64,000 nt of DNA from Rhodamnia argentea (Eukaryota > Streptophyta > Magnoliopsida > Myrtales > Myrtaceae): assembly GCF_020921035.1 (NCBI RefSeq), contig NC_063157.1, forward strand, positions 14,829,777 through 14,893,776, written 5' to 3'. Made by a program: the position numbers and the translations under genes. Below, piece after piece: positions 21,045 through 59,227 of the stretch. The number at the start of each line of letters is the position of its first letter. The stretch's first letter is position 1. Below the pieces are notes generated by a model. That model was not told where the DNA came from. It made no database searches and saw only the letters and a list, made by a program, of their open reading frames with translations.

Positions 21045-22237
21045 TTATTTGATCATCAAGTAATCCCCGAGGGCGGCGTAGTTGCCCCTCGGTGCCTCGA
21101 GCGAGGTTAGCGGATACGTGCCTTGGGCTTGGACCAATGCCACAAGCGCCTCAGCCTCTCTCTTCTTGGCGTACAACTCCGCGTCGGCGAGCTGCTGCCT
21201 CGCGTAGAAGTCGGCTTCGGCGGTCGCCTTACGGGCCTCCTTCTCCTTCTCGTACAGGACCGCCTCCACGGCTTTACGCTTCCCATAGAGCTCCCAGTTC
21301 GCTTCTTTTACCAGAGAGAGTTCAATCATAACCAAAATTTCCATTCACTCGGTGAAGATAGAGCAGCGGGGTTTACCTTGGTTTCGTATTCTACACTAGC
21401 TTGGCTCAGAAACTCAGCCTTGAGCTTCTCCGTCCGCGTCGGGGCATTCATCCTCTCGACCTCCTTCTGCAGCACGGCCTGCCTCGGTACCACCGACTTG
21501 GCAGCTCGGCCTCCTTCGTCCGGCCCGCCTTCTTCTTGGCTAGCTCCGCGTTGGCCTCCGCCACCTTGGCCTCTCTTTCATTCTCGTAGACCTTCACTTG
21601 CGTCCTCACCTTGATCTCCTCCTTCTGCCCCTCCCCCCGTGTCTGCGTCACGATGATCTTCGTCTCCACATCAATCTTCGCCGCGTTTTGCAGCATCTGC
21701 CCTTCCCTAAGCTTGGCCCCGACCTCGCCCTTCATCCTAGCCTCCGACACGTCCACCTTGGCCCGGTTAGCCGCCTCCATCTGCGTCTTCTGGCCCGGGT
21801 AAGAGAAGTACTCGTGCCCCGGGACATCCACCGGTTGCTTCACGTTTGCATTGTAGATCAGCAGTGAGCCAAACCGGTTAAGCTCGAGCTGGACCTTCTC
21901 GAACACCTCCTGCTTGAACTCCTTGGTGCCCCGGAACACCTCCTCCATGGTCATCGAGGCCGCGAGGACGCGGGTCTCCCCCTCGATGATCCCACGGACG
22001 AGCTCCTTGACGTGGTTAGACGGCTTGTCGTGCGGGGAGATGAGCTTGGCATACTTGAGGAGGGCGACGTCGTTGTCGACCCGGGGGCCGATGGTGAACA
22101 CCGCGGGGAGGACGAAGGGGAGCTTCTCGGTGCTCATGGCCTGGACCTCAAAGGTGTAGTTCACCGGGGACACGTCAAAGATGATGTCGGAGATGCCGAC
22201 GCCAGTGATCACCAAGTACTCCGAGGCGCTTGTGAGG
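21045..22237 (-). pseudogene. Flotillin-like pseudogene (copy A of the tandem duplication)
   Basis: Close paralogue of the intact flotillin gene at 54810-56351, same strand. It keeps the intron (about 21313-21373), so it arose by DNA duplication, not retroposition. Lesions: the MYRVA start is lost (the equivalent bases read agattaagcctca); a 45-base in-frame deletion removes most of [16 protein letters not shown] after GVGISDI; a further deletion near 21500 shifts the frame after [11 protein letters not shown]; the intron acceptor AG is changed (ctctctg before GTAAAAGAAGC); and the C terminus stops at DYLMIK, about 75 residues short. The 5' flank still resembles the intact copy, including a 'tatataaaccc' TATA-like site near 22296. 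The flank is interrupted at 22378 by the Mutator-like element. Confidence 0.9.
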
Positions 22238-22369
22238 CTTAATCTTAGGTCGTGTGAAGTGGTTGCCTTGCGGTTGCGGGTTGTGGATTAGGGTTTATAT
22301 AGAACATGTTCACTCCCACTTTGTTGATCCCCAGTAGAAAATGGAATATCGGTTGACCTTGGCATCGGA

Positions 22370-22378
22370 TTCCTCATC
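22370..22378. repeat. Left 9-bp target site duplication of the Mutator-like element
   Basis: TTCCTCATC immediately precedes the GGG terminus. It is identical to 33492-33500. Confidence 0.92.
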
Positions 22379-22500
22379 GGGCTTTTTTTCAAATTGCATA
22401 CAAAAAAAAATTTATTTACCAAATAAGGGGAAAAAAAAGGAATTTACCGTTTAGGGGTCCGCTCGGGAGTCTTACTCCCGAGCGGACCCGCTCGACGGTC
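22379..22500 (+). repeat. Left terminal inverted repeat of the Mutator-like element
   Basis: Pairs with 33405-33491 on the opposite strand. Shared blocks include gggctttttttcaaattgca and accgtttaggggtccgctcg. Beyond about 90 bp the arms keep only the theme of 'gccgagcgg' words. Confidence 0.85.
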
Positions 22501-22980
22501 CCTCTGCCGAGCGGGTATCCCGCTCGGTGTCCTTAGTGCCAAGCAAGACAGCAAGCACGCAGAGAGCAAAACTGCTCTCTCTGCACGTTTTTTTTTTTTT
22601 TTCGCACGCTTTAGTGCGAGCAGAAATTCTGCTCTCGCACTAAAGCGTGCGATCTGCAGAGTCTGCACTACGCTCTCTCTCTCTCCACTAAAGCGTGCAG
22701 AGCACTTGGAGAGAGAGAGAGAGAGAGAGCAGAGTGCAGAGCACTTGGAGAGAGAGAGAGAGAGAGAGCAGAGTTCTGCTCTCTCTCTCTCCACGATCGG
22801 TCTTGCTCGGCACTCACGGTGCCAGAGCAAGAAAAAGGGCATGCAGAGAGAGCGGACTTCTCTCTCTGCATGCCGGCCCCTCTGACGCCGGCGCCTTTAA
22901 TCGGGCGCTAGCAGATGACGTGACCTTTCACGAGTGCTACAGAGCCTTCGGCTACGCTTTAAGCAAAGCCGAAGGCTCTC
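22440..22980. repeat. Cluster of strong hairpins in the left arm
   Basis: A run of near-perfect inverted repeats. 22603-22651 has an 18-bp stem (cgcacgctttagtgcgag and its complement) extended by cagaa/ttctg. 22839-22873 has a 14-bp stem (gcatgcagagagag). 22941-22979 has a 13-bp stem (agagccttcggct). There is also 'cgctcgggagt..actcccgagcg' near 22458-22487, and two copies of a gagcacttggagagagag unit at about 22697-22770. No coding role is apparent. Confidence 0.75.
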
Positions 22981-23810
22981 CGTTGATAAGCTCATCCACA
23001 GAAGCTTCATTCTCTGCATTTCGCTCCTCCAAGGAAGTTCATCGCTCCTTTGCATTTTTGCGTTTCGCCTCTCAGAAACTCATCTCTTTCTACAAATCGC
23101 CTCCTCTCAGAAGCTCATCTCTCCTCTGCATTTCGCCTCTCCACAAAAGCTCAACTTTCCACTACATTTCACCTCTCCACAAAACCTCATCCCTCTTTTG
23201 CTGAAGCCTCCTTCACGGAATCTACGATTTTAAGTGATCTGGATATTAAGTGAACAGAGTGTGGAGTCCGCCGGGAGCCCTCCCCTCGCTTTGATTAACT
23301 TCGGCGAGATTTGTTCTTAATATCCCGATCAAGTTTTAATCGGATTCTCTAAGACGTCATTTCTTGTTTTCTTCTATATAGCTCACGAAGATTTTCTCAT
23401 ATCCCCCTCTCCTCGGGTGCCTTTATTGATATTAGGGTTTTATTTTATTGCAAATATTTTTGTCATGTTTAAATTAAATTGGGACTTTTTTATTTTTGCG
23501 GGAAGTGAGAGAAAGGCAAAGCCGACCTTCTTACTAGTTTGAGGTAAACCTTGTTATAGTTATTTTTTGCAGTTTCGTAAGTATTGTTTTATTTATTTAA
23601 TTATTATTTGTAGACTGAATAGTTGTAATGTTTACGATTTGTGGTAAATAAAAAAAATGACCATAATCTCATAAGAACAAATTTTGAGGACTCATTTTTG
23701 CAACTACGTCCACATATTTATTTTGACGATTTTCAAATTTTAAAAAAGAAAATTAGGAGTGTGAAATGATTTTTTGGACAGATTACATAGTTAGAGATTG
23801 GCTTCTTTTT

Positions 23811-23935
23811 GGGGCTTTTTTCAAGATTGCATAAAAAAAAATTTTTATTTACCAAATAAGGGGAAAAAAAACTTAATTACCTTTTAGGGGTATGCTCGGT
23901 AGTCTAGGTGCCGATCCGAAAATTTTTTTTTCGGA
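23811..23935 (+). repeat. Second, internal copy of the element's terminus
   Basis: 'ggggcttttttcaagattgc' and 'tttatttaccaaataagggg', then 'ccttttaggggtatgctcgg', repeat the left terminus in the same orientation 1.43 kb inside the element. What follows (GC-rich spacer, then the ~127-bp array) is collinear with the right arm. The true partner of the right terminus may once have been here. Confidence 0.75.
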
Positions 23936-24109
23936 CCGAGAAGCGGGGGCGGGGTTTGACCCGGCTTGAAAAATATTTTTTTAATAATTTCAAAATTCGG
24001 ATAATAGAAAATTACAAAATACAAAATGGATTAAAAATAAAGAAAAATCATAAAGACTTTCAAAAAAATGAAGGAAAAAAATATTAAGAAATTTGAGAAA
24101 ATGGGAAAA

Positions 24110-25490
24110 TAGCCACAATGAAGTGGCCATAGATTATTTTGGCCGGTGATTTAAAAAAATGACGATTTTGCCTTTCTGGCAAATTGTCTCCCAAAAAATT
24201 CAAAAAAAATCTCAAAAATTAGGAAATGGCCACAATCAACTTGCCATGGACGATTGACGGCATTTTGGCCGAGGAATTTTGAAAAATGACGATTTTGCCC
24301 TTCCGGCAAATTGTCTCCCAAAAAATTCAAAAAAAATCTCAAAAATTAGGAAATGACCACAATCAACTGGCCATGGACGATTGACGGCATTTTGGCCGAG
24401 GAATTTTGAAAAATGACGATTTTGCCCTTCCGGCAAATTGTCTCCCAAAAAATTCAAAAAAAATCTCAAAAAATTAGGAAATGGCCACAATCAAGTGGCC
24501 ATGGACGATTGACGGCATTTTGGCCGACGAATTTTGAAAAATGACGATTTTGCCCTTCCGGCAAATTGTCTCCCAAAAAAATTCAAAAAAATCTCAAAAA
24601 TTAGGAAATGGCCACAATCAATTGCCATGGACGATTGACGGCATTTTCGCCGAGGAATTTTGAAAAATGACGATTTTGCCCCTTCGGCAAATTGTCTCCC
24701 AAAAAATTCAAAAAAAATCTCAAAAATTAGGAAATAGCCACAATCAAGCGGCCATGTACGATTGACGGCATTTTGGCCGAGGAATTTTGAAAAATGACGA
24801 TTTTGCCCTTCTGGCAAATTGTCTCCCAAAAAATTCAAAAAAAATCTCAAAAATTAGGAAATGGCCACAATCAACTTGCCATGGACGATTGACGGCCTTT
24901 TGGCTGAGGAATTTTGAAAAATGACGATTTTGCCCTTCCGGCAAATTGTCTCCCAAAAAATTCAAAAAAAATCTCAAAAATTAGGAAATGACCACAATCA
25001 AGCGGCTATGGACGATTGACGGCATTTTGGCCGACGAATTTTGAAAAATGACGATTTTGCCCTTCTGGCAAATTGTCTCCCAAAAAATTCAAAAATAATC
25101 TAAAAAATTAGGAAATGGCCACAATCAATCGGCCATGGACGATTGACGGCATTTTGGCCGACGAATTTTGAAAAATGACGATTTTTGCCTTCTGGCAAAT
25201 TGTCTCCCAAAAAATTCAAGAATAATCTCAAAAATTAGGAAATGGCCACAATCAAGCGGCCATGGACGATTGACGGCATTTTGGCCGACGAATTTTGAAA
25301 AATGACGATTTTGCCCTTCTGGCAAATTGTCTCCCAAAAAATTCAAAAAAAATCTCAAAAATTAGGAAATGGCCACAATCAACTGGCCATGGACGATTGA
25401 TGGCATTTTGGCCGATGAATTTTGAAAAATGACGTTTTTGCCCTTCTGGCAAATTGTCTCCCAAAATGACGATTTCGCCCTTCTAGCAAC
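24110..25490 (-). repeat. Left-arm tandem array, about 11 copies of a ~127-bp unit
   Basis: The landmark 'gacgattttgcccttc' recurs near 24161, 24288, 24415, 24543, 24669, 24796, 24923, 25050, 25178, 25304 and 25431 (period 126-128). On the minus strand it reads as open frames containing GDNLPEGQNRHFSKF. That is a by-product of a period near a multiple of three, not a protein family. The same unit, inverted, forms 31140-33220. Confidence 0.92.
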
Positions 25491-25626
25491 TAGCCCTTAG
25501 GCCTATACTAAGACATTTATTTCATTTGATATATTGATAGTGGGTATGTTAATTTGATAACGTATATGGGACAATATTTAGGAAATTGTAGTTTAGAAAT
25601 AATTTCTAATTTATTTAAATCTCGGA

Positions 25627-28256
25627 ATGTTGTCTACATCTTTTGCGATTGTGCACTGGGGAGGCACAATAGTACGAACTGAATATGGAATTGATTACGA
25701 AGGCGGACAATCTACCATGTTCGGGATGGCAAATATATCGACATTTGATGAGTTACGTGTGTCGATTGAGAGCGCTTTGAATATAACAGGAAACCAGTAT
25801 ATTCAAACGGTGGTGTATAGATATCCGTATGTAACACGCAATTGTGTTACATATGACATTACGGAGGTGCATGATGATGCCACATTCACGATGATTCAGC
25901 AATTTGCACTTCAGTTTGGTGGTACGGGGTTCTTGCGGTTCTATGCAAGCGTAGCAGAACATCAATTGAGAGATGATTTCGCGGAGGAAGCTTCGAATGT
26001 TGGTGAAGATGATGATGGTCTGCATAATCGGTGCGTGCGGGCCGATGATAATGCCGATAATGCTGCTGATGATGATGATGATGATAATGCGATAATCTTT
26101 GCTGCGATAATGATATAATGCTTGATAATCTTTTGATGATGATAATAATGCGATAATCTTTGCTGCTAGCTGGTGATGATGATGATGGTGATGAAGAAGA
26201 TGATCCTTGGATGGACTCCGATGACAATGACGAAGAAGATGTCGGATGTGAGAATATGGAGGCTTACTATAATACGCGATGCAACAATCCCATTTTGCCG
26301 TTGGTACATCCACCGCCTTATTCAAAGATCGACTTTGACATGATGCAAGACGACACAAGAGCCAAGCCGGGCCGTATGCTATTTGATCCATCAAAAGAAT
26401 TTGATGTTGGCATGTTGTTTCCATCACGGGACGCGGTGCGGTTGGCTGCGAAAGAGTACTCCCTTAGGAGAAATCAAAATTTTCGCAGTTATTTGACAAA
26501 GAAAGACGAATATGTGATAAGGTGTGGCAATTCAAATGGACCGTGTGGTTGGAGGCTCCGCGCGATTGCTAAATCGGGTGGCATGTTTTGGAAAATAAGT
26601 AAATATAATGGGCCACATACATGCAGTTCTCCGCAAATGTCACGGGATCATCGGCACCTTGACCAAAAGTACCTCTGCAGCCAAATAGAAGCAATGGTCG
26701 TTGCCCAACCAGATATCAAAATCAAGCCACTGATGGCGGAGATTCAAGATAAGCTGCAATTCGAACCTACTTACCGTAAACCTGGAAGGCCAAACAAATG
26801 GCAATCGCCGGACAATTTGGAGATTGGGATGAATCATACAGTAGGTTGAGACGTGGATGATCGAAATGAAGAGTCGGAATCCAGGTTCACATTTTGTGAT
26901 CGATGATCATATCAACCTAGATCAGGGCTGCACGGTTTTGAACCGGATGTTTTGGACTTTCAAGCGGACGATTGAAGGCTTCACAAGTTGTCGTCCTGTG
27001 ATTTTTGTTGATGGTACATTTTTGTACGAAAAATACGAAGGAACCCTCCTTTGTGCGGCCTCCCTTGATGGAAATAATCATATTTTCCCGCTGGCATTTC
27101 CTGTAGTCCATCGGGAAAATGTTGATAATTGGACTTGGTTTATGAATACATTGCGGAGATATGTCACTAGGAGAGATAATATTTGTGTAATATCAGACAG
27201 ACATATCGGTATTCAACGAGCAATGGAGACAGCACGGTGGCGTCCTCCACATGCCCACCATAGATATTGCATTTGGCACATTGCCAGCAACTACAACAAA
27301 CATTTCAAAAATGCCGAAGGGAAAAAACTTATTCGGACGGCGAGTAAATTCTCGAATTTGTAAATTTTAAGAAAATACGTATGGAAAAATTTGAGTACAA
27401 AGTACTAATTAATGTTGTCTTGTACAGCTTACGCGAACCAACGACGAAAGTTCGACCAATTCATGAGCCAAATTAGGGAGTTTGATCCGGCCACAGCTGC
27501 ATGGTGCGATCGGATTCCAAGAGAAAAATGGACAAAGGCTTATGATGAAGGGAGGAGATATGGATCGATGACGACAAATTTAGTCGAATCGGTCAACGGG
27601 ATCTTGAAGGGTTTCCGTGGTCTACCAATAGCAGCCATGGTCGACAAGATATTCTATCGGTTGGTGCACTATTTTGATACGAGAAGAACAATGTATAGGA
27701 TGCAGAAAGACAACCGGTGGAAATATACGGAATTTACCGGTGTCACGCTCCGGAAGAACAGTCAAAAAGCAAATAGGCATGTCGTCACGTGTTTCGACTA
27801 CGATAGAGGCGTTTTCGAAGTGACAACTGGACGTGACGGATCCGGAGGTTCAGGGGGCCACAAACACATAGTGCGCCTACACTTGAGAACGTGCACATGT
27901 GGGAAATTTGAAAGATTGAAAATCCCATGTTCACACGTCATGGCAGCATGTCAAGCGTATGGCATTGATTACGAACCATACGTAGATGAATTCTATACTT
28001 TAGAGAAAACCCTTCGGTGCTATCGGTATATGTTTAATCCGTTGGGGCATCTTCATTACGAGCTTGAACCTGAAGAAGCGCCATTAGTGCCGGACCAGTC
28101 GTATTCGGAAGAAAGGAAGGCCCCGTACATCACGGATCCGGAATGAGATGGACTGGAGAAGCGCGAGCGATAGCTCTTCGCGAAATCATTGCACACACTG
28201 CGGAAAATTAGGGCACAATAGGAAAACTTGTGCACATAGATCGGCCGGAGAGTAGA
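25627..28256 (+). pseudogene. MURA-like Mutator transposase (MULE domain, SWIM, zinc knuckle), with frame breaks
   Basis: DDE transposase that excises and inserts the element. In order: a PB1-like N-terminal region (VHWGGTIVRTEYG at 25650 to GFLRFYASVAEH), an acidic Asp-rich linker with imperfect repeats (26040-26215), the MuDR DNA-binding region (FPSRDAVRLAAKEYSLRRNQ; CGNSNGPCGWRLRA; GPHTCSS), the MULE catalytic domain with first Asp in FVDGTF, second in VISDRH and Glu in NLVESVNG, a SWIM finger (CTCGKFERLKIPCSHV) and a CCHC knuckle (CTHCGKLGHNRKTC near 28190). One 84-bp intron at 27344-27427 has GT-AG ends. One-base breaks lie near 26780 (after YRK), near 26853 and near 28090 (before the KKGRP motif). 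The first two look like one missing base in a short homopolymer. It is either a lightly damaged gene or an intact one with sequence errors. Confidence 0.88.
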
Positions 28257-28615
28257 TCATACTTGCTCGATCCTTATGTATTTCGTTCCTATGCGTTGTA
28301 ATGATGATCGTATTTCTATGTTATACAATCTCTTTGTCTTCTGAAGTCATCAAATGAATATCTTCATATGGGAAAAAAATTGTATCATGAAATAATTTCT
28401 ATGTTATAAAATAATTTCTATCGTTGTGTCGATCCTGGGAAATCAACGAATAACGGATGTTGGCGCGTAAAAAAGACATGGGGCGTGACAAGTATCATGA
28501 ATTTTTGTAATGTTATAATATCACAATTGCACGATATTTATTCGGTTTATGTGTTCCATGTTATATATACATATGGGAATTTGTTGTAATGTTATAATAT
28601 CATAATTGTGTAGAT
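28257..28615. other. Spacer between transposase and PMD genes
   Basis: AT-rich. Contains two copies of 'gtaatgttataatatca' (about 28507 and 28585). Should hold the transposase 3' end and the PMD promoter; no clear signal is seen. Confidence 0.5.
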
Positions 28616-30960
28616 ATGGCACAGAGTACTTACATTCAGCCGAGCCCGGAGGATGATTCACTACTTACTGGGCAAGCCCGACATAGATCTCGAGCTATAT
28701 GGGACGCTAAGGTAATTGAAGATTTTTCGGTTGATCTGTACTTTGTAACAATATCATCAAAATTGCCACTAACTGTTCATGTTACATGTCACAGATACCT
28801 CCGACAGAAGCCCTTCGATGTCGGCGAGCGATGCTACACGTAGGTGATCTTGATCCGCGGATAGTCCCGTATCTGCAAGCTTCAGGATTTTTTGGCGATT
28901 ATTTGATGGGATTCGTGCAGCTGGATTGGCACTTAATTCTTGCATTGGTCGAGCGGTGGAGGCCCGAGACCCACACCTTCCATATGCCGGAAGGTGAATG
29001 CACTATCACGCTGCAGGATATTGCGGTCTTGACAGGCCTTCCTATAGATGGACGTGCAGATTCTGGCCCCAGTGTTCTGAATTGGGCCACTGTATGTGAC
29101 GATCTACTCGGTGCTCACCCGGCCCGGTTGCGGGGCACACAGATCGGTTTGAGTTGGTTGAGACGGCGCTTTGAAGAGCTTCCGCCGGACGTCGATGACG
29201 TCGCCATAGTGCAGCATTCCCGGGCTTTCATTTTCCGTCCGCTAGAAGGATCTATTTTCTCGGACAAATCGGGTGCCCGAGTTAGTTTGTTGTTTCTTCC
29301 ATTATTGGCGAACCTTAACGTCCCTACGCAGTATAGTTGGGGTTCAGCAGCACTTGCATGGTTGTACCGAGAGTTATGTCGTGCAACCGACCTAGAGACG
29401 AAGCAAATGGGCGGTGCCTTACATATCTTGCAGCTTTGGGCGTGGGAGCTCTTCGGATGTGTCTCCCCATCCCCGACGGTTGAGGTTCCTTTAGGACTTG
29501 CACCTTTCGGTAGTCGGTATGTGATCTATTATATTTTTAGTTCGTGCGTTATTAATTCCTTCCAGTGCGTATAATATAAGAAAATTGAATGTTTTTTGTT
29601 TATGCGGTTGGAGTCACGGTCGAAGTACGACGGAGATCCCCACGCATACGTTGGTACATCTGCGCTACCAACTTGATAGATTGGCATCCGAAGATGTAAG
29701 TAATGATAGCAACGAATGAGTTTAATATAATGTTAGCTTTTAAATTAATTCTTCATTTAATTTCATATGTTTTATTATGATAACAGATTATTTGGGAGCC
29801 CTATGGTGGCGACATTCTGGAGAATGTACCGGCTTACTGCTTGCGGGGACAAGATATTTGGAGGGCTCGTGTGCCACTCATCTGTTTTTGGATAGTTGAG
29901 TGGCATTATCCAGATCGAGTACTTCGCCGGTTTGGTATGCAGCGATCGATACCTACTCCTCCCCGCGATCACACAGGCTTGCATGATATTGACAATAGGC
30001 CACCCGGGAAGGATTGAGCGACTAAACACGGACGATAGATCGCTTTGTGGGACAGACGTACCGAATATGTAGTCCATGCTGATCCCGCCACGGAGGAACT
30101 CAACTTTCACTCGGGATATATGGAGTGGTTCCTTGGACATACACGGAAGTGGATTTCTATTACGGGAGCTGCAATGGGTTCAATGGTTCGTGCAAATACT
30201 TTCAATTTAATTCATTAACTATATTTTTACTAACATAAGTTATTGTAATTTTATAACATTTGTTGCTTGTCATATCATTACCAGGGTGATGGCGTGGAAC
30301 AAATTTTACGTATATTAAATTCACGTCCATCTCGTCAGACTTGGGGAGATGTGGGGAGGATAGCTAAGGCAATGCTATACGCCCGGCATGAGGAGAGGCG
30401 TCTCACGATGATGCCACCACCCCAACCAGCAACTACAGCGGCAACCGTTGGCCCTCACGATGATGATCCGCTTGAACCTGTTCGGTCGACCCGGAGGGCT
30501 CCTCGAGGTCATGTAGTTGGCGATGCCGTCCCTTACACCTTCGAGTATCATACGACGGATTTCGCTTCGGGTTTCGCTCCAGGATTAGACCAGACAGGTT
30601 TCAATGTTGGATTCACCCATTTTGCCGCCCCATTTCCCGAGGGATCTACTTTTGCATTTCCCGATCCGGAGACTCCGGCTCCTTCTCCTACTCCGTATGT
30701 ACCCGATTTCCCTCCTTTTTATTCAACCTTCTCTCGAGAAGGATATGTACCGTCCAGGCGGGGCATATTTTCACAAGATATGCCTTCATCATCTACACAT
30801 CCTCCTCGGTCGGATCCTCCTCCTCGGCCTCCTCCTCGTCCGTACAATACTAGATGCCGCGAGCACCGAAGAGAGCCACGTTGCGGAACGAGGAGGTCAT
30901 GTAGGAAGACGACATCGTTAGTACATGTAATTGCGACAATCCGATTATTATCTATTATGA
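28616..30960 (+). pseudogene. Plant mobile domain (PMD) protein gene carried by the Mutator-like element
   Basis: MAIN-like protein of the 'aminotransferase-like, plant mobile domain' family, found both in host silencing or genome-stability factors and inside plant transposons. Probable exons: 28616-28711, 28795-29516, about 29608-29695, 29787-30185, and 30285 onward. Domain landmarks: YLQASGFFGDYLMGFVQLDW, HTFHMPEGECTITLQDIAVL, TGLPIDGRADSG, SWLRRRFEELPPD, YRELCRATD, IWEPYGGDIL, ADPATEELNFHSGYMEWF. The C-terminal region is Pro-rich and ends near RREPRCGTRR, typical of the family. Lesions: stops TGA at 30015 and TAG at 30036 interrupt exon 4 within conserved sequence, and the acceptor before 29608 lacks AG. 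The gene is parallel to and 360 bp downstream of the transposase. Its role in transposition is unknown. Confidence 0.85.
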
Positions 30961-31019
30961 AAATAGCATGTTTTTCATATATCTCAAAGCACTTTCATTT
31001 TATCAATATTCCGAATTAA

Positions 31020-31140
31020 TTACACTAATAAAATAAGCTTCAAAAGAAACAATTTATAAATAAAATAATAATTATTAAAAACTTAACAAAAATTATGATT
31101 TCCTTTTTAAAAAACGCCGAAGCGAGAACAAAACGCCCGA
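31020..31140. other. Short AT-rich spacer before the right array
   Basis: No signal beyond poly-A/T words. Confidence 0.5.
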
Positions 31141-33220
31141 ATCGTCCATGGCCGAGTTGATTGTGGCAATTTTCTTTTTACAATTTTTTGGGAGACAATT
31201 TCTTTGGAAGGAAAAATCGTCATTTTCTAAAAGTCGTCGGCCAAAATACCCTCAATCGTCCATGGCCGGTCGATTATTGTCATTTACTAATTTTTGAGAT
31301 TTTTTACAATTTTTTTGAAAGACAAATTGCCACAAGGGCAAAACCGTCATTTTCTAAAAGTCGTCGGCCAAAATAACCTGAATCGTCCATGGCCGATCGA
31401 TTATGGTCATTTACTAATTTTTGAGATTTTTTATAATTTTTTTGAAAGACAAATTGCCGGAAGGGCAAAACCGTCATTTTCTAAAAGTCGTCGGCCAAAA
31501 TACCCCCAATCGTCCATGCCAGTTGATTATGGTCATTTACTAATTTTTGAGATTTTTTATAATTTTTTTGAAAGACAATTTGCCAGAAGGGCAAAACCGT
31601 CATTTTCTAAAAGTCGTCGACCAAAATACTCCCAATCGTCCATGGCCGATTGATTATGGTCATTTACTAATTTTTGAGATTTTTTATAATTTTTTTAAAA
31701 GACAATTTGCCGGAAGGGCAAAATCGTCATTTTCAAAAGTCGTCGGCCAAAATACCCCCAATCGTCCATGCCAGTTGATTATGGTCATTTACTAATTTTT
31801 GAGATTTTTTATAATTTTTTTGAAAGACAATTTGCCGGAAGGGCAAAACCGTCATTTTCTAAAAGTCGTCGACCAAAATACCCCCAATCGTCCATGGCCA
31901 GTTGATTATGGTCATTTACTAATTTTTGAGATTTTTTATAATTTTTTTAAAAGACAATTTGCCGGAAGGGAAAAATCGTCATTTTCAAAAGTCGTCGGCC
32001 AAAATACCCCCAATCGTCCATGCCAGTTGATTATGGTCATTTACTAATTTTTGAGATTTTTTATAATTTTTTTAAAAGACAATTTGCCAGAAGGGAAAAA
32101 CCGTCATTTTCTAAAAGTCGTCGGCCAAAATACCCCCAATCGTCCATGGCCGATTGATTATGGTCATTTACTAATTTTTGAGATTTTTTATAATTTTTTT
32201 AAAAGACAATTTGCCGGAAGGGCAAAATCGTCATTTTCAAAAGTCGTCGGCCAAAATACCCCCAATCGTCCATGCCAATTGATTATGGTCATTTACTAAT
32301 TTTTGAGATTTTTTATAATTTTTTTGAAAGACAAATTGCCGGAAGGGCAAAACCGTCATTTTCTAAAAGTCATCGGCCAAAATACCCCCAATCGTCCATG
32401 GCCAATTGATTATGGTCATTTACTAATTTTTGAGATTTTTTATAAATTTTTTGAAAGACAATTTGCCGGAAGGGCAAAATCGTCATTTTCAAAAGTCGTC
32501 GGCCAAAATACCCCCAATCGTCCATGCCAGTTGATTATGGTCATTTACTAATTTTTGAGATTTTTTATAATTTTTTTAAAAGACAATTTGCCGGAAGGGC
32601 AAAATCGTCATTTTCAAAAGTCGTCGGCCAAAATACCATAAATCGTATATGGCCGGTTGATTGTGGCCATTTACTAATTTTTAAGATTTTTTACAATTTT
32701 TTTGAAAGGCAATTTGCCGGAAGGGCAAAACCGTCATTTTCTAAAAGTCGTCGGCCAAAATACCCCCAATCGTCCATGGCCGATTGATTATGGTCATTTA
32801 CTAATTTTTGAGATTTTTTACAATTTTTTTTGAAGACAATTTGCCACAAGGGCAAAATCGTCATTTTCTAAAAGTCATCGGCCAAAATACCCCGCATCAT
32901 CTATGGTCAGTTGATTGTGGCCATTTATTAATTTTTGAGATTTTTTACAATTTTTTTGCAGACAATTTTCCAGAATGGTAAAACTATTATTTTCTAAAAG
33001 TCATTGGTCAAAATACCCTGAATCGTGCATGACATGTTCATTATGGCCATTTTTGACATTTTTTTCAATTTTTTTCGAAGACAATTTGCCATAAGGGCAA
33101 AATCGTCATTTTCAAAAATCGTCGGCGAAAATACCCTGAATTGTCTATGGCTAGTTCAATGTTGCCATTTACTAATTTTTCCGAGCTTTCATAATTTTTT
33201 TAGAAAATAATTTCTTACGA
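31140..33220 (+). repeat. Right-arm tandem array, about 16 copies of a ~126-bp unit with a 252-bp higher-order repeat
   Basis: Unit landmarks: 'gaaagacaatttgccggaag', 'gtcattttctaaaagtcgtc', 'cccaatcgtccatggccgat'. From about 31547 to 32551, pairs of units repeat with a 252-bp period: alternate units differ in 'ttttctaaaagtcg' versus 'ttttcaaaagtcg', and 'catggcc' versus 'catgcc'. The array is the inverted counterpart of 24110-25490, and the last copies toward 33220 are the most diverged. The open frames it creates are not genes. Confidence 0.92.
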
Positions 33221-33235
33221 GGACGAAATCGCCGG

Positions 33236-33420
33236 GTCGGGATCGGGGCGGGGGGGGGGAGGGGCGGCGGGGAAGGGGGAGGGGCGGAGGGGCGGGGGGG
33301 GCCGGTGGCCGGGCCGGCCCCGCTCGGCGGTTAAGCTGCCGAGCCAGTGCCCGCTCGGCAGATATAGCGCCGAGCGAGTGCCCTGGCTCTGGCTGTTAAA
33401 CCGCCGAGCGGACCCCTAAA
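33236..33420. repeat. GC-rich G-run block and 'gccgagcgg' palindromes of the right arm
   Basis: About 33238-33310 is nearly all G on the plus strand, with many runs of three or more (quadruplex-capable). Then come nested 'ccgctcggcggtt..ccgagc' words leading into the terminus. It is the positional counterpart of the GC-rich segments in the left arm. Confidence 0.7.
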
Positions 33421-33491
33421 CGGCAAATAACTTTTCTCTCCCCTAAAATGGTAAATAAAAATATTTTTGTATGCAATTTGAAAAAAAGCCC

Positions 33492-33500
33492 TTCCTCATC
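33492..33500. repeat. Right 9-bp target site duplication of the Mutator-like element
   Basis: TTCCTCATC directly follows the CCC terminus and is identical to 22370-22378. Confidence 0.92.
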
Positions 33501-34983: not shown

Positions 34984-35630
34984 GGGAAAAGTGTCAAAAA
35001 AGTCCTAAACATATGGCATTAGTGCCAATTCAGTTCTAAATCTTTTTTTTTTTGTGTCAATTCAGTCTAAACCTTTTGTATTGGTGCCATTTAAGTCATA
35101 AATCTTTTATTAATGCCAATTCAGTCCTAAACCTTTTATAATATTGTCAATTTAGTTCTAAAAATTTTGCATTTATACCAATTGAGTTAACTTGGCCAAT
35201 TTTGATTGGAAATCACTGGCATGGACGTCAATTATCCTACGTGGCACGGTTAGCGCTAACGTGGATAATTTTTAAATATTTTTTTGATATTTTAAATAAT
35301 TTTTAAAAATAATTTTGAAAAAACCCAAAAAAAATGCTTATAAAATTATTTAAAATATTAAAATAATATTAAAAAAATGTCCAGGTTAGCGCTAGCCATG
35401 CCATGTAGGACAATCGATGTCCACGTCAGCGATTTTCGATCAAAATTGGCCGGATTAACTCAATTTGTATAAATATAAAAGATTTAGGACTGAATTAGCA
35501 ACAATACATAAGGTTTAGGACTAAATTAGCACCAATAAAAGGTTTATGACTTAATTGACACCAATGCAAAAGGTTTAAGACTGAATTGGCATTAATGCAA
35601 TAGGTTTAGGACTTTTTTGACACTTCTCCC
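34984..35630. mobile_element. Mutator-type foldback MITE with perfect 10-bp flanking duplication
   Basis: The ends gggaaaagtgtcaaaaaagt (left) and the reverse complement of the right end (gggagaagtgtcaaaaaagt) match. The whole 647-bp element is a long imperfect palindrome of 'ttgcaccaattcagtccta'-like phrases around a centre near 35310. The flanks are both ccaagacgga (34974-34983 and 35631-35640). No coding capacity. Confidence 0.88.
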
Positions 35631-39926: not shown

Positions 39927-41384
39927 TGTCGCGACCTAAAAAATAAACGAAGTTAATTTTCGGGCTAATGGATTATCAGGTTAATTAATTAACTAACCTA
40001 ACTCGGACTCTCCCAAGTCCATACCAAATCGCAACTTATGGTTCATGTGATTATCTTGCAAAAGATTTTTCATTTTTTGGAGCCGCCACTAATCATTTTT
40101 GGTAGGTTGATTAGAAACCTAAATAAAATAGCGGGAGAAAACTATCTTATTTCCGCGAACCAGAGATTTTGAATTCGGGGATTTGGTTACGTCAGATTTC
40201 TCTAACGCCCTTTCGGTACCATTTTCATGAAAAATATTTGATTTGGCTATTTTGATGGATTTTGCTTGAAATTCAAAGATGCAATTTTTTTTGTTTTTTC
40301 TTCTTTTTTATGGGGATGTAAAACATTGAACTTTGTACGATATACACCATGGATGATTTAGAAAGAAAGAAAACGCAGCCAATCACGAGTATTTACAGAA
40401 ATAAATTAACATGTAATAATGCTAAAATTTGGAACACGTGGCATGTCTAAAATAAACAAACGAATGTTCACACCAAACGATTACATTTTTGTAGATCGAG
40501 ATGGAAAGGATTACCTTCTATTATACAAAATCTTACTCACATACACGTTATAGTTCCCTTCAAGATCTCGAGTTTGGAAGAACGCGGCTGTCGTCGAAAA
40601 TGGCAAGCAATGGCGTTGTTGGGTTGCAAGGGGCGAAATATGTGTCGGGACTCGTCGAAGATGATGCTCGACTAAAACTCTTTTCTTCACTCTCGAATTT
40701 TCTCTTCTGATTTTTCTCAAGAACTCTCTTTTTCCTCTCTAAAAATTCCTTTCAAAAACTCTCTCAAAACTCTCTCAATTCTCTTCCACTCTTCCTAAAA
40801 AAACTCTCTCAATTCTCTTCTACTCTCTCTCTCAATTCTCTTCCACTTCCCCCTTCTAAAAACTCTTCTCAAGAGCTCTCTCTTTTATAGGCAAAGTTCT
40901 TCATCCTTCATTCTTCACCTTCATTTCTTCACCTTCCATCTTCATCTTCTCTTCTTCATCTTCATTTCTTCACCTTCCATTTTCATCTTCCCTTCTTCAT
41001 CTTCATTTCTTCACCTTCCATTTTCATCTTCCCTTCATTATCTTCCCTTCATCATCTTCCCTTCTTCATCTTCTTTTCATTATCTTCCCTTCATCATCTT
41101 CCCTTCTTCATCTTCTTTTGGTATTTGCAATACGGTCCCTGAAGTTCTAAGTATTTGCAATACGGTCCCTGAAATTTTAAGTATTTGCAATACAGTCCTT
41201 GAAGTTTCAAATCTTCTCGGTGTATTTTTCCATCCCGTGCCTAGTCTAGACGCATGCTAAATTAAGTGTTCTCGCTTGCCCGATTATATGCCAATGCAAT
41301 GTACGCTAAAAATAAATATGTGAGATGATTTTTTTTTATAATTTTTATGCAAAAAATAGATTAATCAAAATTTAGGCGTCAACA
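39927..41384 (-). repeat. 3' LTR
   Basis: Plus-strand limits are TGTCGCGACC and GGCGTCAACA, so the minus strand also runs TG to CA. Contains CT-rich tandem words (cttcatcttcccttcatta, about 40910-41120). It differs from the other LTR at roughly a dozen positions, mostly single-base changes. Confidence 0.95.
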
Positions 41385-41749: not shown

Positions 41750-42290
41750 CGTTTGAGATCACAAGAGTTACGTCGTTGTGAGTCGAAAGAAGTGAAATCA
41801 AGTTCACAAGAGCTACGTCGTTGTGAGTTGATTAAATGTTGAAATCGCCAGTGCATATGTCTTCACGATTCGACAAAGGGGAACCAAAATCATAAGAGCT
41901 ACGTCGTTATGATTTGGTTTGGATTAAAATCATGGGTGCTTATGTCTTCATGATTTGATAAAGGAGCCGAAAATCATAAGAGCTATGTCATTATGAGCCG
42001 ACTAAAGGTCAAGATCACCGGTGCATACGTCTTCGTGATTCGATACCGAAATCATAAGAGCTACGTCGTTATGATTTGATGAGATGTCAAGATCGCCGGT
42101 GCATATGTCTTCACGTCCTGAGATTGAAACCATAAGAGCTACGTCGTTATGATTTGATAAGATGTCAAGATCGCCAGTGCATATGTCTTCACGTCCCGAG
42201 ATTGAAACCATAAGAGCTACGTCGTTATGATTTGATAAGATGTCAAGATCGCCAGTGCATATGTCTACACGACTTGACGGAAGAGGCATA
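41750..42290. repeat. Minisatellite of ~75-88-bp units in the element's 3' region
   Basis: 'agagctacgtcgttatgat' and 'catatgtcttcac' recur about seven times (near 41767, 41811, 41899, 41982, 42056, 42134, 42211). The minus-strand frame through it shows the periodic peptide CTGDLDILSNHNDVALM, which I regard as repeat translation. Tandem repeats at this position are a known habit of Ogre/Tat elements. Confidence 0.8.
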
Positions 42291-45687: not shown

Positions 45688-46460
45688 TCAACCCGGTCTG
45701 CTGCTAGAACCACCAGCGGAAGGTTGGTATGACATGTATTCTTGATTGGGAAGTGGCCGAGTACCTTTTGCTCGGTAGATTTTCCCGGTATTGATCTTCC
45801 AATCAACTTTGGTCCTGTCGTGTTGGTCCCAACCTGCATCGTGCTTCCTCGGCTTATCTCTAACCCTTTGAAGGTGATTCGTGACACTTTGCATGGTGAG
45901 TCCGTCTATATTCATTATTCTGTGTACAGCCATTGGTCGTCTTGAATTGATTCCTAGTTGTCGAACCGCCTCAATGAATATAGAATGAAGCTTGGCGGAC
46001 CAAAGGGGCCTTTTCTTTTGGACAAAATCGTCGTCATCAGCTTGGTCGTAGTTTTTTTGTTCGAGTAATTGCTTCCTTACAGCATGCTGCCAAATGTTTT
46101 GGAGCATTCGAACGCAGATCAGGCCAGTAGGACGTCTCGAGCACCATGCAATGTGGCCCTCGTTATGAGCTGCTGATCATTACTTGCTGATACTACGATG
46201 ACTCGTATGTCTAACTCGGAATCAATGATCTTTAAGAGACTGAAACCGTCCATATTGATCCCTACCACGGCTGTGACGACGATGTCAAACTCTTCTTTGT
46301 ACCGCCTCAGCACTTCTAAGGCATCCGTTGCCTTCGCATAAGCAAAAACCCTGTACATGCAACTTCTTAGCATAGCAACGAGGATTGAGAGGGAAACGGG
46401 GTTGCCATCAATGGCCATGACTCGCAGATCCTCGGGATAGGAAGGTTCCCATACTTCCGC
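45688..46460 (-). pseudogene. Captured type-B response regulator fragment (receiver plus GARP/Myb-like domain)
   Basis: Type-B ARRs are cytokinin-pathway transcription factors. The receiver part runs from YPEDLRVMAIDGNPVSL through FDIVVTAVVGINMDGFSLL to TRATLHGARDVLL. A one-base frame break near 46118 separates it from MLQNIWQHAVRK and then a GARP domain: KKRPLWSAKLHSIFIEAVRQ through NIDGLTMQSVTNHLQRVRDK. The acidic pocket DD is reduced to DG, the phosphoacceptor Asp of the usual SDVHMPDMDGF motif is Ala (TAVVGINMDGF), and the conserved Lys after YLL is lost. It lies inside an LTR retrotransposon, on the element's own strand, and appears intronless over the receiver-GARP stretch. I infer capture of a spliced or exon-rich host segment. 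It is not a functional phosphorelay protein as it stands. Confidence 0.8.
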
Positions 46461-46841
46461 TTGGAATGAACGTGTTTTTCTTTTAAAACCTTCCATATGT
46501 AGACCGAAAATGGCTGTTTCGACTAGAGAATGAGCTTTAGATGTTCTTGGGCTTGCAAAAACAAATTGCCCGAAAATCACAAAAGCGATGATGGCCTTTC
46601 GTGACGGATTCTGAAGGTCGCTAGGTGTATGGAGACTTCAAGTTCTTTATAAACTTCCTCTCTCTTTTTTTTATTAGTCTTGCAGACGGGTTTTCGCTTT
46701 CTCTACGAAAGAGGACAGCTTTTTCTCTCCTTTTCGGTCTTAGTGCCTTGGATCCGTTTCGTAATAACTCTCATCTCTCACTCCATCTATCATCTTCTTC
46801 CTTTTCCGATATGGAGGAGCCCTCAAATCTTTTCACTTTCT

Positions 46842-49502: not shown

Positions 49503-49840
49503 TTTTTTTAAAGCATCAGAACCGGCTGGGTTGGTAAGGACACGACCATCCATCTCGGCCATAATCAAAGCACCACCGGGGAGCACCTTCTTTACTATAT
49601 ATGGACCACCATAGTTTGGAGCGAATTTCCCTTCTGGGAGTGGGACTATTGGCAATAATTTTCTCAAGACCGGGTCATTGATCCGAAAATATCGAGGCCG
49701 AACTTTTTTGTTGAATGATTTAGCAACCCTTTGCTGATAGCACTTGGCTATGACATACTGACCTTTAGTCTCTTTTCGTCGATCGATTCAATTGGCTCGC
49801 CCTTTCTTTGGATCCATTCGGCTTGGTCATCGGCTTGAGA
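49503..49840 (-). pseudogene. Decayed C-terminal part of the retrotransposon pol
   Basis: Continues the integrase C-terminal region in broken frames: YLSQADDQAEWIQRKGEP, then KVRPRYFRINDPVLRKLL and FAPNYGGPYIVKKVLPGGAL with LTNPAGSDALKK. At least two frame breaks (near 49840 and 49755) separate it from the upstream frame. Confidence 0.75.
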
Positions 49841-50927
49841 CAAGTATACGTAAGGAAGGAATTTCCACTTCAATCGGTAGAACAGCCTCCACTCCATATA
49901 CAAGAGAATACGGGGTTGCCCCGGTAGATGTCCGGATCGAGGTCCGATACGCCATAAGTGCAAATGGCAACCTCTCATGCCAATCGCGATAATTTTCAGC
50001 GGTCTTCGCTAAGATTTTCTTAATGTTCTTATTGGCGGCTTCTACTGCTCCATTCATCTGAGGACGATATGGGGAAGAGTTCAAATGCTTGATCTTGAAT
50101 TCCTTGAACAATTCGTCCATTAGCTTGTTGTTCAAGTTTGAGCCATTGTTAGTGATTATGGCTTCGGGTGAACCATATCGAGCGATGATATCTCGACGGA
50201 TAAATTTCACGATATTTCGTGCTGTGACCGCTAAATAAGATGCGGCTTCGATCCATTTAGAGAAATAGTCAATTGCTACCAAGATGAATCGATGCCCATT
50301 AGATGCTTTAGGATTGATAGGGCCGATAACATCAATGCCCCACATAGAAAACGGCCATGGTTCGGATAATCGATGCAACTCATTTGGAGGGACATTAATC
50401 TTGTCACCATGAATCTGACATTTGTGACAACTTCGGACATGCTGAACCGGGTTGGAAGTCCCATCATACTTCTCGAAGTCGGGCATCTTGAACTTCTCTC
50501 GCACTGTGACCTTTGAAAAGATAGATAGGTCAATCTGGGGTATGTTGTGAGTCCCCTCAACCTCTCGGATCCTCTGTTCCATTTGGGCCAACAGCTTGGC
50601 CGCATCACCATTCAATCCGGGGGTCACGGGGCTGGCTTGAGGGATTGGGACTACGGGTGGCGTGCTCGAGTTCATGCCTGTGATGATCACATCTTCTAGC
50701 GGCATTATCTGATAGGGAGCAGCTTCCAGGGCTTTACCGGAGTTATCCGCATGAGGAATTCGAGCAGGAATGATTAGCAGCGGGCTGGAGGTGGATGATT
50801 GCAGTTTGGTGGTGAAGGCGGCCATCATTTCCTCCATCTTTCGGGACATCATCCCTTCAAAGCGCTCGGTCAATGAGTTAAGTTTCTCGTCCAGGGCAGC
50901 ACCGATAGTGGCGTTAATGTCGGCCAT
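49827..50927 (-). pseudogene. Gag-integrase in-frame fusion of the retrotransposon (internally deleted polyprotein)
   Basis: A 366-residue frame. Residues 1 to about 165 are the gag N-terminal region (MADINATIGAALDEKLNSL; MPDFEKYDGTSNPVQHV). The next residues are already the integrase zinc region (CHKCQ) and catalytic core, with the DDE motif context WGIDVIGP (first Asp), ITNNGSN (the usual second Asp is Asn here) and NGAVEAANKN (Glu). Nucleocapsid, protease, reverse transcriptase and RNase H are missing, and the reading frame is kept across the junction. The element could move only with help from intact relatives. Confidence 0.88.
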
Positions 50928-52239
50928 CCTCTTTGCGGCTGATCGAGTAATATGTGGAGGATCCGTGATAAATTACCTGTACACGGTAACAAACCCAAAA
51001 TTAGTACGGGGAGCAAGAATAGTGAGTCGGCCCATGGCATCCCTCTAGACTCAAATGAACAAAGTGATTATGACCAAAGGATTGAAACATGTAATTTTCA
51101 GTTTGTCCGCTTTTACGAAAAAATTCGTATTAATTCGTACGTTGATCAAAACATGTCCAAATTTTACGAGCTTATAGTTGAGAAGATGATGAACAACTTT
51201 TATGTTGGCCAATCGGACTAGAAATGCATGGATCAAATCAGTTTAATGTGTCTTTCCAAAAAAATCACGTTCAGAAAACTGTTATAACCGCATGTTGTTG
51301 AAAAAACGAAGGGCCATCTTAAAATATGAATTTAATTCTGAAATTTTGCAAGATATTAGTTGAAACATAGATCTACAACTTTCGTGTTTGGCACTTACTC
51401 AAAGCTCGATCGTAGAATTTAGTAAAAATCGTACAACAGGAATAAGCCAAATCAGAATTGAGGACAACTGATGAAATTGTAAAAGCTACGGAAGCAAAGT
51501 GCGAAATTGGAAATAAGACAATGAAACTTCTAAACAATCAACCTAAACCATGGACCGGCCCAAAATAAAAATGAGATAACAGGGTACAAGAGACAAGAAA
51601 TTACCTCTCATACGAAGAAAATGTCAATCACAAAGACATGCGCATGAATTGTGAGTTTAAATCTTATTCTATCTATCCAAAAGGCTTTTGCAAAGTGAAA
51701 TGATGAACGAAACGACATGTCGCAGCCTCGCGCACAGTCATCATGACTAGTCGCAACCTCGCGTACAATAGTCATGACTAGTCGGGTCCAATCACTTCGG
51801 CTTGGTTCGGTCGACAAGGGCAATTATCATGCATCGTAGCCTCACGTGCATGAGAACAACCCTTGAGCCATTTTTTGAAAAAATTTTCGGGATCCGGATG
51901 GGATAACCTTTAGCGAAACCTTACCGCCAAGGTTAAAGAACCATCTAAATACCATCTTAAAACTATTAGTGTGACCCGGGTCCGGTCACGGGTTGTGTGC
52001 GGTGTAGTGAAAATACGATAAATCATGCACAACAATTAAAGGCAAACACCGCTTCAATGATTCAAAAGTTAAATCACAATTCCAATTCACCAAGCACGCA
52101 AAACAAAGGGTTAGCCGATCACTCCTCCCCTTATAACTCCCAATCTGCAAAAACATTTAACACCTAAGAATGAGAATTCAACCAAAGTTTACCAAATCAA
52201 GTGATTTCTTTTTCATGAAATTATCCGGCCTAAGTCCTC
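50928..52239. other. Retrotransposon 5' leader between PBS and gag
   Basis: About 1.3 kb without a convincing frame, as expected for a long untranslated leader or the remains of an upstream ORF. Contains 'tcgcagcctcgcgcacagtcatcatgacta' type short tandem words near 51720-51840. Confidence 0.55.
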
Positions 52240-52266: not shown

Positions 52267-53723
52267 TGTCGCGACCTTCAAAAATAAACGAAGTTAATTT
52301 TCGGGCTAATGGATTATCAGGTTAATTAATTAACTAACCTAACTCGGACTCTCCCAAGTCCATACCAAATCGCAACTTATGGTTCATGTGATTATCTTGC
52401 AAAAGATTTTTCATTTTTGGAGCCGCCACTAATCATTTTTGGTAGGTTGATTAGAAACCTAAATAAAATAGCGGGAGAAAACTATCTTATTTCCGCGAAC
52501 CGGAGATTTTGAATTCGGGGGATTTGGTTACGTCGATTTCTCTAACGCCCTTTCGGTACCATTTTCATGAAAAATATTTGATTTGGCTATTTTGATGGAT
52601 TTTGCTTGAAATTCAAAGATGCAATTTTTTTGTTTTTTCTTCTTTTTTATGGGGATGTAAAACATTGAACTTTGTACGATATACACCATGGATGATTTAG
52701 AAAGAAAGAAAACGCAGCCAATCACGAGTATTTACAGAAATAAATTAACATGTAATAATGCTAAAATTTGGAACACGTGGCATGTCTAAAATAAACAAAC
52801 GAATGTTCACACCAAACGATTACATTTTTGTAGATCGAGATGGAAAGGATTACCTTCTATTATACAAAATCTTACTCACATACACGTTATAGTTCCCTTC
52901 AAGATCTCGGATTTGGAAGAACGCGTTTGTCGTCGAAAATGGCAAGCAATGGCGTTGTTGGGTTGCAAGGGGCGAAATATGTGTCGGGACTCGTCGAAGA
53001 TGATGCTCGACTAAAACTCTTTTCTTCACTCTCGAATTTTCTCTTCTGATTTTTCTCAAGAACTCTCTTTTTCCTCTCTAAAAATTCCTTTCAAAAACTC
53101 TCTCAAAACTCTCTCAATTCTCTTCCACTCTTCCTAAAAAAACTCTCTCAATTCTCTTCTACTCTCTCTCTCAATTCTCTTCCACTTCCCCCTTCTAAAA
53201 ACTCTTCTCAAGAGCTCTCTCTTTTATAGGCAAAGTTCTTCATCCTTCATTCTTCACCTTCATTTCTTCACCTTCCATCTTCATCTTCTCTTCTTCATCT
53301 TCATTTCTTCACCTTCCATTTTCATCTTCCCTTCTTCATCTTCATTTCTTCACCTTCCATTTTCATCTTCCCTTCATTATCTTCCCTTCATCATCTTCCC
53401 TTCTTCATCTTCTTTTCATTATCTTCCCTTCATCATCTTCCCTTCTTCATCTTCTTTTGGTATTTGCAATACGGTCCCCGAAGTTCCAAGTATTTGCAAT
53501 ACGAGTCCCTGAAATTTTAAGTATTTGCAATACAGTCCTTGAAGTTTCAAATCTTCTCGGTGTATTTTTCCATCCCGTGCCTAGTCTAGACGCATGCTAA
53601 ATTAAGTGTTCCGCTTGCCCGATTATATGCCAATGCAATGTACGCTAAAAATAAATATGTGAGATGATTTTTTTTTATAATTTTTATGCAAAAAATAGAT
53701 TAATCAAAATTTAGGCGTCAACA
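52267..53723 (-). repeat. 5' LTR
   Basis: Near-identical to 39927-41384, with the same TG..CA limits. Differences are scattered single bases and one-base indels (for example near 52277, 52517, 52536, 52910 and 53480-53610), implying a recent insertion. Confidence 0.95.
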
Positions 53724-58902: not shown

Positions 58903-59227
58903 GGGATAAATGCGTTTAAAGTCCTATAACCTTATTAGGAAAGTGCAATCGAGTCCTAATTTTTTTTTTCAAAAACAAGTGCAATAAAGCCCGAAAATTT
59001 GTCAAAAAATGCAATTGAATCTTAAAACTTTTAAAAAATGCAATCAAATTTTAGAACTTGTCAAATTAATAAAGTCAAATCATTCCGTTGATTGCATTAT
59101 TTAAAAGCTCTGGGACTCGATTGCATTTTCGCGACGAGTTTCAGACTTAATTGCACTTTTCAAAAAGAAATTTAAAACTCAATTGCACTTTCGTGACAAG
59201 TTTTAGGATATCCAGTGCATTTATCCC
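58903..59227. mobile_element. Foldback MITE-like element
   Basis: Termini gggataaatgc and its reverse complement. The interior is a palindromic series of 'gcaattgagtcctaaaactt'-like phrases. No matching flanking duplication (tacgatcgc / taaaatcat). Confidence 0.5.

Follow-up and report, generated by a model that had tools for sequence, protein, structure and literature searches.

Two flotillin genes lie in the 64,000-nucleotide stretch of Rhodamnia argentea DNA analysed here (assembly GCF_020921035.1, contig NC_063157.1, positions 14,829,777 to 14,893,776; hereafter the window), and the upstream region of one of them is interrupted by a long segment, 22379-33491. What is this segment, how did it come there, and what might its genes do for it? 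An earlier note on the sequence had proposed a structurally complete, giant Mutator-like element (MULE) with perfect 9-bp target duplication, reverse-complement ends, a transposase core and a second gene, inserted upstream of a flotillin gene. Our analysis indicates that the segment is very probably one copy of a multicopy family of two-gene Mutator-like DNA transposons, which would have inserted by cut-and-paste approximately 0.15 kb upstream of the position that corresponds, by alignment, to the start codon of the flotillin paralogue, and which carries a selected accessory gene for a plant mobile domain (PMD) protein. The identity of this second gene, two inverted arrays of a 127-bp unit and an internal terminal repeat are additions to what the earlier note had described.

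The borders are precisely those proposed. Indeed, TTCCTCATC flanks the element on both sides and has no further occurrence in the window, whichever strand is read, and the element ends are exact reverse complements over 28 bp, alignable over approximately 150 bp in a self-alignment of the window. A 23-mer, GGGCTTTTTTTCAAATTGCATAC, has two matches in the window, solely at these two ends, and the hairpins formed in the left end (22379-22560) have a z-score of -8.0, none of 200 shuffles being equally stable. From left to right, the element consists of a terminal repeat, 39- and 36-bp repeats, an internal terminal repeat, the left 127-bp array, the transposase, the PMD gene, a further open reading frame (ORF), the inverted right array and the second terminal repeat. 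The sequence obtained by joining the two flanks can be aligned to the region 5' of the flotillin paralogue (55404-56423), which contains no such insertion (score 49 on the left, with 28 as the highest of 300 shuffles, and 44 on the right, with 37 as the highest); the right-flank match exceeds its shuffles only modestly. The insertion upstream of a flotillin gene is confirmed. Homology to the left flank stops at 56452 and homology to the right flank starts at 56489, with 36 bp in between. The paralogue can accordingly be taken as a pre-insertion reference, as the earlier note had suggested, but not a base-exact one, and the nine bases are not resolved in it.

Other copies with the same ends, for which the earlier note had recommended a search and whose absence it had named as a refutation, are present in the genome. 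The R. argentea assembly (346.7 Mb, 74 contigs) was searched with the left 322 bp of the element, and 13 facing end pairs, the window copy included, were chosen from the 76 matches listed by spacing alone. All 13 display a perfect duplication at identical GGGC...GCCC borders (9 bp in ten pairs, 10 bp in three), and a transposase match led to a further copy, on C10, whose duplication is 9 bp long; the duplications differ among all of these copies, whereas the borders are identical. Lengths range from 411 bp to 11.3 kb across the 13 pairs and from 8.3 to 11.3 kb in the ten pairs that contain both transposase and PMD, as does the C10 copy, so that the window element, described earlier as giant, does not stand out by its size within the family. 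One of these ten (C1:21853201) has lost most of the catalytic part of its transposase. All ten possess the internal terminal repeat, and in the window copy the bases before it do not repeat the target duplication, which is confined to the outer ends.

The segment thus combines a catalytic domain, an approximately 9-bp duplication, long terminal inverted repeats (TIRs) and a multicopy family, the features by which the Mutator superfamily is recognized. MULEs usually produce target duplications of 8-11 bp. The superfamily assignment of the earlier note holds, but the nine-base length that it considered diagnostic is insufficient by itself, 3 of the 13 duplications being 10 bp long; it is the transposase domains that carry the assignment. 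These were detected by Pfam in 26157-28146 as DBD_Tnp_Mut, MULE, Transposase_mut and SWIM (E-values of 6e-21 for PF10551, 9e-6 for PF00872, 3e-6 for PF03108 and 1e-8 for SWIM), and a scan of six ORFs yielded only these domains and PMD. Two stops that separate the catalytic part from the SWIM part could have been regarded as damage, a reading that we rejected: since they recur in 11 of 11 copies within an 84-nt GT-AG stretch, they are read as lying in an intron. Cut-and-paste movement by the MULE transposase is a trait of the superfamily, from which we infer that a MURA-like DDE transposase would have bound the terminal repeats and excised the element, which would then have been joined to a staggered 9-bp cut.

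The window copy itself is probably dead, because its transposase shows at least two frame changes relative to sister copies and because the PMD span 29784-30164 contains two stops, absent there from the sister copy C2:23231202; neither protein is likely to be made intact. A single frame through the same transposase parts is kept in 4 of 11 copies (a set that includes the window copy and leaves out the truncated C1:21853201). The element is therefore structurally complete, as previously stated, in its anatomy but not in its reading frames.

This anatomy includes the pair of inverted 127-bp arrays. Units are present in both arms of all 11 two-gene copies read, with at least four per arm in 10 of them, and at C9:24552008 the transposase-side arm is reduced to about two units. 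Over 209 units, identity is 0.88-0.89 between units of the same side in different elements and 0.83 between left and right units; the two arrays were accordingly separate before the copies read had spread. Genome-wide, the unit matches listed (the best 150 of 217 matches, with 40 of 805 candidates scored, for a left-type query, hence a lower bound) form 40 clusters, 35 of which have one of the 150 listed transposase cores no more than 9 kb away. In 32 of these 35, array and core are on the same strand (with the array 1.8-2.8 kb upstream in 31 cases and at a distance of 6.1 kb in one), and the three others are in opposite orientation approximately 4.5 kb off, as expected for right arrays. Among the matches listed, the idea that the unit is a general satellite of this genome is therefore unsupported.

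Related elements outside the family differ in this respect. A sister element on C3 (ends GGGTTTTTTTCC, 9-bp duplication), in which PMD also lies in sense, has a homologous unit of 134-136 bp in approximately five copies on the left only (alignment score to the 127-bp unit of 103; highest of 300 shuffles, 48). An element on C1 with PMD upstream in antisense (9-bp duplication GTCATTTGT), read whole, contains no detectable 127-bp-type unit (best score 46). Judging from one element of each kind, the arrays would appear to have expanded in the sense lineage. The C3 element (C3:6418500-6434500) possesses two internal terminal-repeat copies; these direct copies lie within a 454-bp tandem repeat, and ATTTTGC precedes both of them and also ends the outer target duplication GCATTTTGC. 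The C1 element (C1:8018345-8033345) is a related MULE of 12.6 kb with TIRs of approximately 250 bp and a perfect duplication.

Several roles can be envisaged for the arrays. They may be passive, a minisatellite growing by slippage and unequal exchange and perhaps a source of silencing small RNAs, and we regard this as quite possible, a little short of an even chance. Copy number indeed varies freely, with 1 to 12 units on the transposase side and 6 to 16 on the other in the 11 two-gene copies, and the C3 sister makes do with its few left-side units and the antisense element with none detectable. Such drift, however, agrees poorly with the retention of units in both arms of every two-gene copy and with the conservation of the unit, whose commonest base per column has a mean share of 0.90, a value obtained on 209 units picked by their similarity to that of the window copy. 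Alternatively, the arrays could be transposase-binding or transposition-enhancing subterminal repeats without any part in anti-silencing, as is perhaps the case for the 12-bp repeats of Muta1, of which nine copies have been described as MULE subterminal tandem repeats (PMC5225508). The occupation of both arms in inverted orientation and a 17-bp dyad with 6-bp arms in the unit consensus would suit such a function. Yet the arrays sit approximately 0.2-2.1 kb from the element ends, in two derivatives only one side bears an array, and the 411-bp derivative has family ends and a perfect 9-bp duplication with no array at all, a mild argument, as this is a single copy that may have lost its array after insertion. 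We consider a purely transpositional function rather unlikely, though well worth keeping in mind.

The second gene is a PMD gene. Its PMD domain (PF10536, Pfam E-value 1e-48) lies at 28735-29574, and the conserved ORF downstream of the PMD exons probably encodes the C-terminal part of the same protein. Linkage was counted on the matches listed for the 150 cores, so that the counts are lower bounds: a PMD match lies within 6 kb of 102 cores, the nearest being downstream in sense for 85 and upstream in antisense for 17, and among the 36 cores of at least 84% identity PMD is near 31, always in sense. At C3:29053851, which is among these 17 antisense cases, a sense PMD match lies on the opposite side as well. 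Synonymous (dS) and non-synonymous (dN) divergence was compared with four elements of other families, some of them read completely and some in part. Between the window copy and three antisense elements, dS of transposase and PMD was 0.73/0.75, 0.67/0.71 and 0.80/0.70, respectively, the three being mutually close (dS 0.07-0.19) and not independent. Between families, dN/dS was 0.21-0.37 for the transposase and 0.22-0.36 for PMD, and both genes are under purifying selection at this level; within the antisense clade it was 0.42-0.54. Given the linkage of PMD to transposase cores, the similar dS values against the antisense elements and the low dN/dS between families, PMD is most likely an old cargo, present before the families parted and kept by selection, whose place or orientation changed at least once.

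Several observations weigh against this picture of a two-gene family with a selected accessory gene and its own arrays:

— For PMD, 48 of the 150 listed cores have no listed PMD match nearby, one of those tallied in this way (C1:8024845) being an element in which PMD is seen when its sequence is read. Against the sense element C3:6424944, dS was 0.53 for the transposase and 0.75 for PMD in the window copy, and PMD exceeded transposase in all four family copies tested (0.75-0.80 versus 0.53-0.57), which makes the co-inheritance of the two genes less clear in this comparison.

— Within the family, stops occur in PMD or transposase of several sister copies, and median dN/dS is approximately 0.5 for both genes (range 0.25-1.34 for the transposase, 0.09-0.93 for PMD), as would be expected if many copies decay.

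— For the repeats, 5 of the 40 array clusters have no listed core, one of them being C1:21853201, the copy whose core is deleted, and at an E-value of 1e-3 the C10 copy gave no match to the internal terminal repeat.

— Finally, a VANC-like domain (DUF1985/DUF287, as named in the part of PMC5735166 dealing with it) was not found in six ORFs at an E-value of 0.1, a scan that did not extend to short exons.

Could PMD then be a passenger, a host gene recently caught in Pack-MULE fashion with no role for the element? Captured genes are frequent in MULEs, Ikeda 2017 argue in the section concerned for a capture of PMD-C genes by MULEs (PMC5418596), and the unequal divergence of the two genes from the C3 element would agree with such an event. 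It is nonetheless very improbable in view of the proximity of PMD to 102 of the listed cores, the similar dS of both genes from the antisense clade and the constraint on PMD between families. Moreover, a Pack-MULE carries a captured host gene fragment and no transposase of its own, whereas here the transposase is present and PMD has long been linked to it. As for chance or an assembly artefact behind the matching ends and flanks, none of 100 shuffles gave two matches of the 23-mer and all 13 end pairs have duplications, which for practical purposes refutes it and leaves it a negligible probability.

A PMD gene in a MULE is not without precedent: the MULE itself, its 9-bp duplication, PMD as cargo and additional TIRs are all already known. 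The present family resembles the PMD-carrying plant MULEs MUDR, MUDRAVI2, MDR, MULE-Monocots and MULE-Solanaceae_1, described as having a SWIM-bearing MULE transposase, a 9-bp duplication and PMD as an additional protein (Dupeyron 2019, PMC6446971; Ikeda 2017, PMC5418596), and both the sense and antisense positions of PMD that are reported for them (Table 1 of PMC6446971) are also seen in this genome. As far as these descriptions allow comparison, the family differs from them in that PMD is a separate downstream sense gene and in its inverted 127-bp arrays and internal terminal repeat, which the passages concerned do not mention. It shares with VANDAL21 and VANDAL6, as presented in PMC5735166 and PMC10398659, a MULE nature with fast-changing non-coding tandem repeats and extra genes, but no VANC domain appeared in the ORFs scanned, and the unit is of 127 bp in two inverted arrays. 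An extra inner TIR with an outer duplication only recalls the MULEs with additional tandem or solo TIRs of Ferguson and Jiang 2012 (PMC3310237). For tomato, the relevant part of that report gives 12 distinct solo-TIR elements, one with another copy and one coding example, which is degenerate; the retention of a solo internal TIR in an amplified coding family, with all ten two-gene pair copies possessing it, differs from this account. Muta1 of Aedes aegypti likewise has subterminal tandem repeats and 8-9-bp duplications, but its 12-bp units lie inside a 145-bp TIR in a 3.2-kb element for which a single transposase gene is described (PMC5225508). In the titles and abstract openings listed by literature searches on MULE tandem arrays, VANC and PMD-carrying MULEs, family-wide inverted arrays of the 127-bp type were not found.

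Table 1. Coordinates of the features of the element and its target duplications, in window positions.
Feature	Position	Strand	Remarks
Left 9-bp target site duplication, TTCCTCATC	22370..22378	.	match to right copy
Left terminal inverted repeat	22379..22527	+	first 28 bp shared exactly with the right repeat; GC-rich hairpins beyond
39-bp tandem repeat, 2.1 copies	22695..22774	+	
36-bp tandem repeat, 3.8 copies	23063..23195	+	similar arrays in other family copies
Internal terminal-repeat copy, direct orientation	23812..23905	+	85% to outer one
Left array of 127-bp unit, 10.5 copies	24136..25466	+	tandem-repeat scan
First part of transposase (open stretch; start codon tentative)	25603..27343	+	N-terminal part, acidic repeat, DBD_Tnp_Mut, MULE catalytic domain
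Predicted 84-nt phase-1 GT-AG intron	27344..27427	+	stop-bearing stretch conserved in 11/11 copies compared
Transposase, last exon with SWIM zinc finger	27428..28146	+	
PMD gene, several exons	28634..30164	+	spans by match to relatives, not exact borders: ~28634-28711, 28735-29574, 29609-29698, 29784-30164
ORF without Pfam match, conserved in family	30249..31019	+	downstream of PMD exons
Right array of 127-bp unit, 16 copies, inverted relative to left	31175..33213	-	self-alignment and tandem-repeat scan
31-bp GC-rich tandem repeat	33319..33410	+	adjoins and enters right end
Right terminal inverted repeat	33339..33491	-	alignment to left end
Right 9-bp target site duplication, TTCCTCATC	33492..33500	.	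match to left copy

The neighbourhood of the insertion contains further features. Relative to the paralogue at 55404-56423, the flotillin copy adjoining the element (21448-22287, minus strand) lacks 45 coding bp as well as the region of the start codon, and is probably a pseudogene; among 120 matches listed, the paralogue has its highest identity with Syzygium oleosum (94%, with 92% of the query covered). Foldbacks are found at 34984-35630 and 58903-59227 (77% and 71% inverted-repeat identity, respectively), to the right, that is upstream, of the two flotillin copies. Direct repeats with TG...CA ends at 39927-41384 and 52267-53723 (98.97% identity over 1461 bp) enclose an integrase-core ORF (49827-50972), an arrangement that identifies a putative young long terminal repeat (LTR) retrotransposon, situated between the flotillin copies; the bases flanking these repeats do not match. 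Within the LTR-bounded stretch, 45688-46637 (minus strand) contains response-regulator receiver and weak Myb-like ORFs, which we take to be type-B response regulator-like: either a host gene would have been caught in the retrotransposon or the LTRs would come from two elements. A short tandem repeat at 41780-42278 lies within an ORF and yields the repeated peptide motif EDICTGDLDILSNHNDVALM.

What, then, might the PMD gene and the arrays do for the element? Host PMD proteins of the MAIN/MAIL1 type are described as silencing transposons (PMC5418596; also PMC8616336), and Ikeda 2017 speculate in their text on MULEs that the PMD proteins encoded by these elements counter host silencing (PMC5418596). 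VANC proteins of VANDAL MULEs, according to the parts of PMC5735166 and PMC10398659 that treat them, bind short motifs in non-coding tandem repeats and remove methylation. By analogy to VANDAL and VANC, a counter-silencing role may be proposed for PMD or the arrays: the PMD protein would be a selected accessory, most likely opposing host silencing, and the arrays would be element-specific regulatory DNA, putatively bound by an element protein. A bolder version, which we put forward as an improbable conjecture, would join the PMD protein (or the transposase) and the inverted arrays in a sequence-specific anti-silencing system of two components that does not depend on VANC, in which the element protein would recognize the arrays of both arms and keep the element open, and the arrays would change with the protein between families (none, few left-only units of 135 bp, or two inverted arrays of 127 bp). 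In any case, the approximately 100 linked transposase-PMD matches of this genome, occurring in two gene orders and with or without arrays, provide natural contrasts for the anti-silencing idea: methylation and small-RNA maps of array-bearing and array-free families, or of copies that have or lack PMD, could be set side by side.

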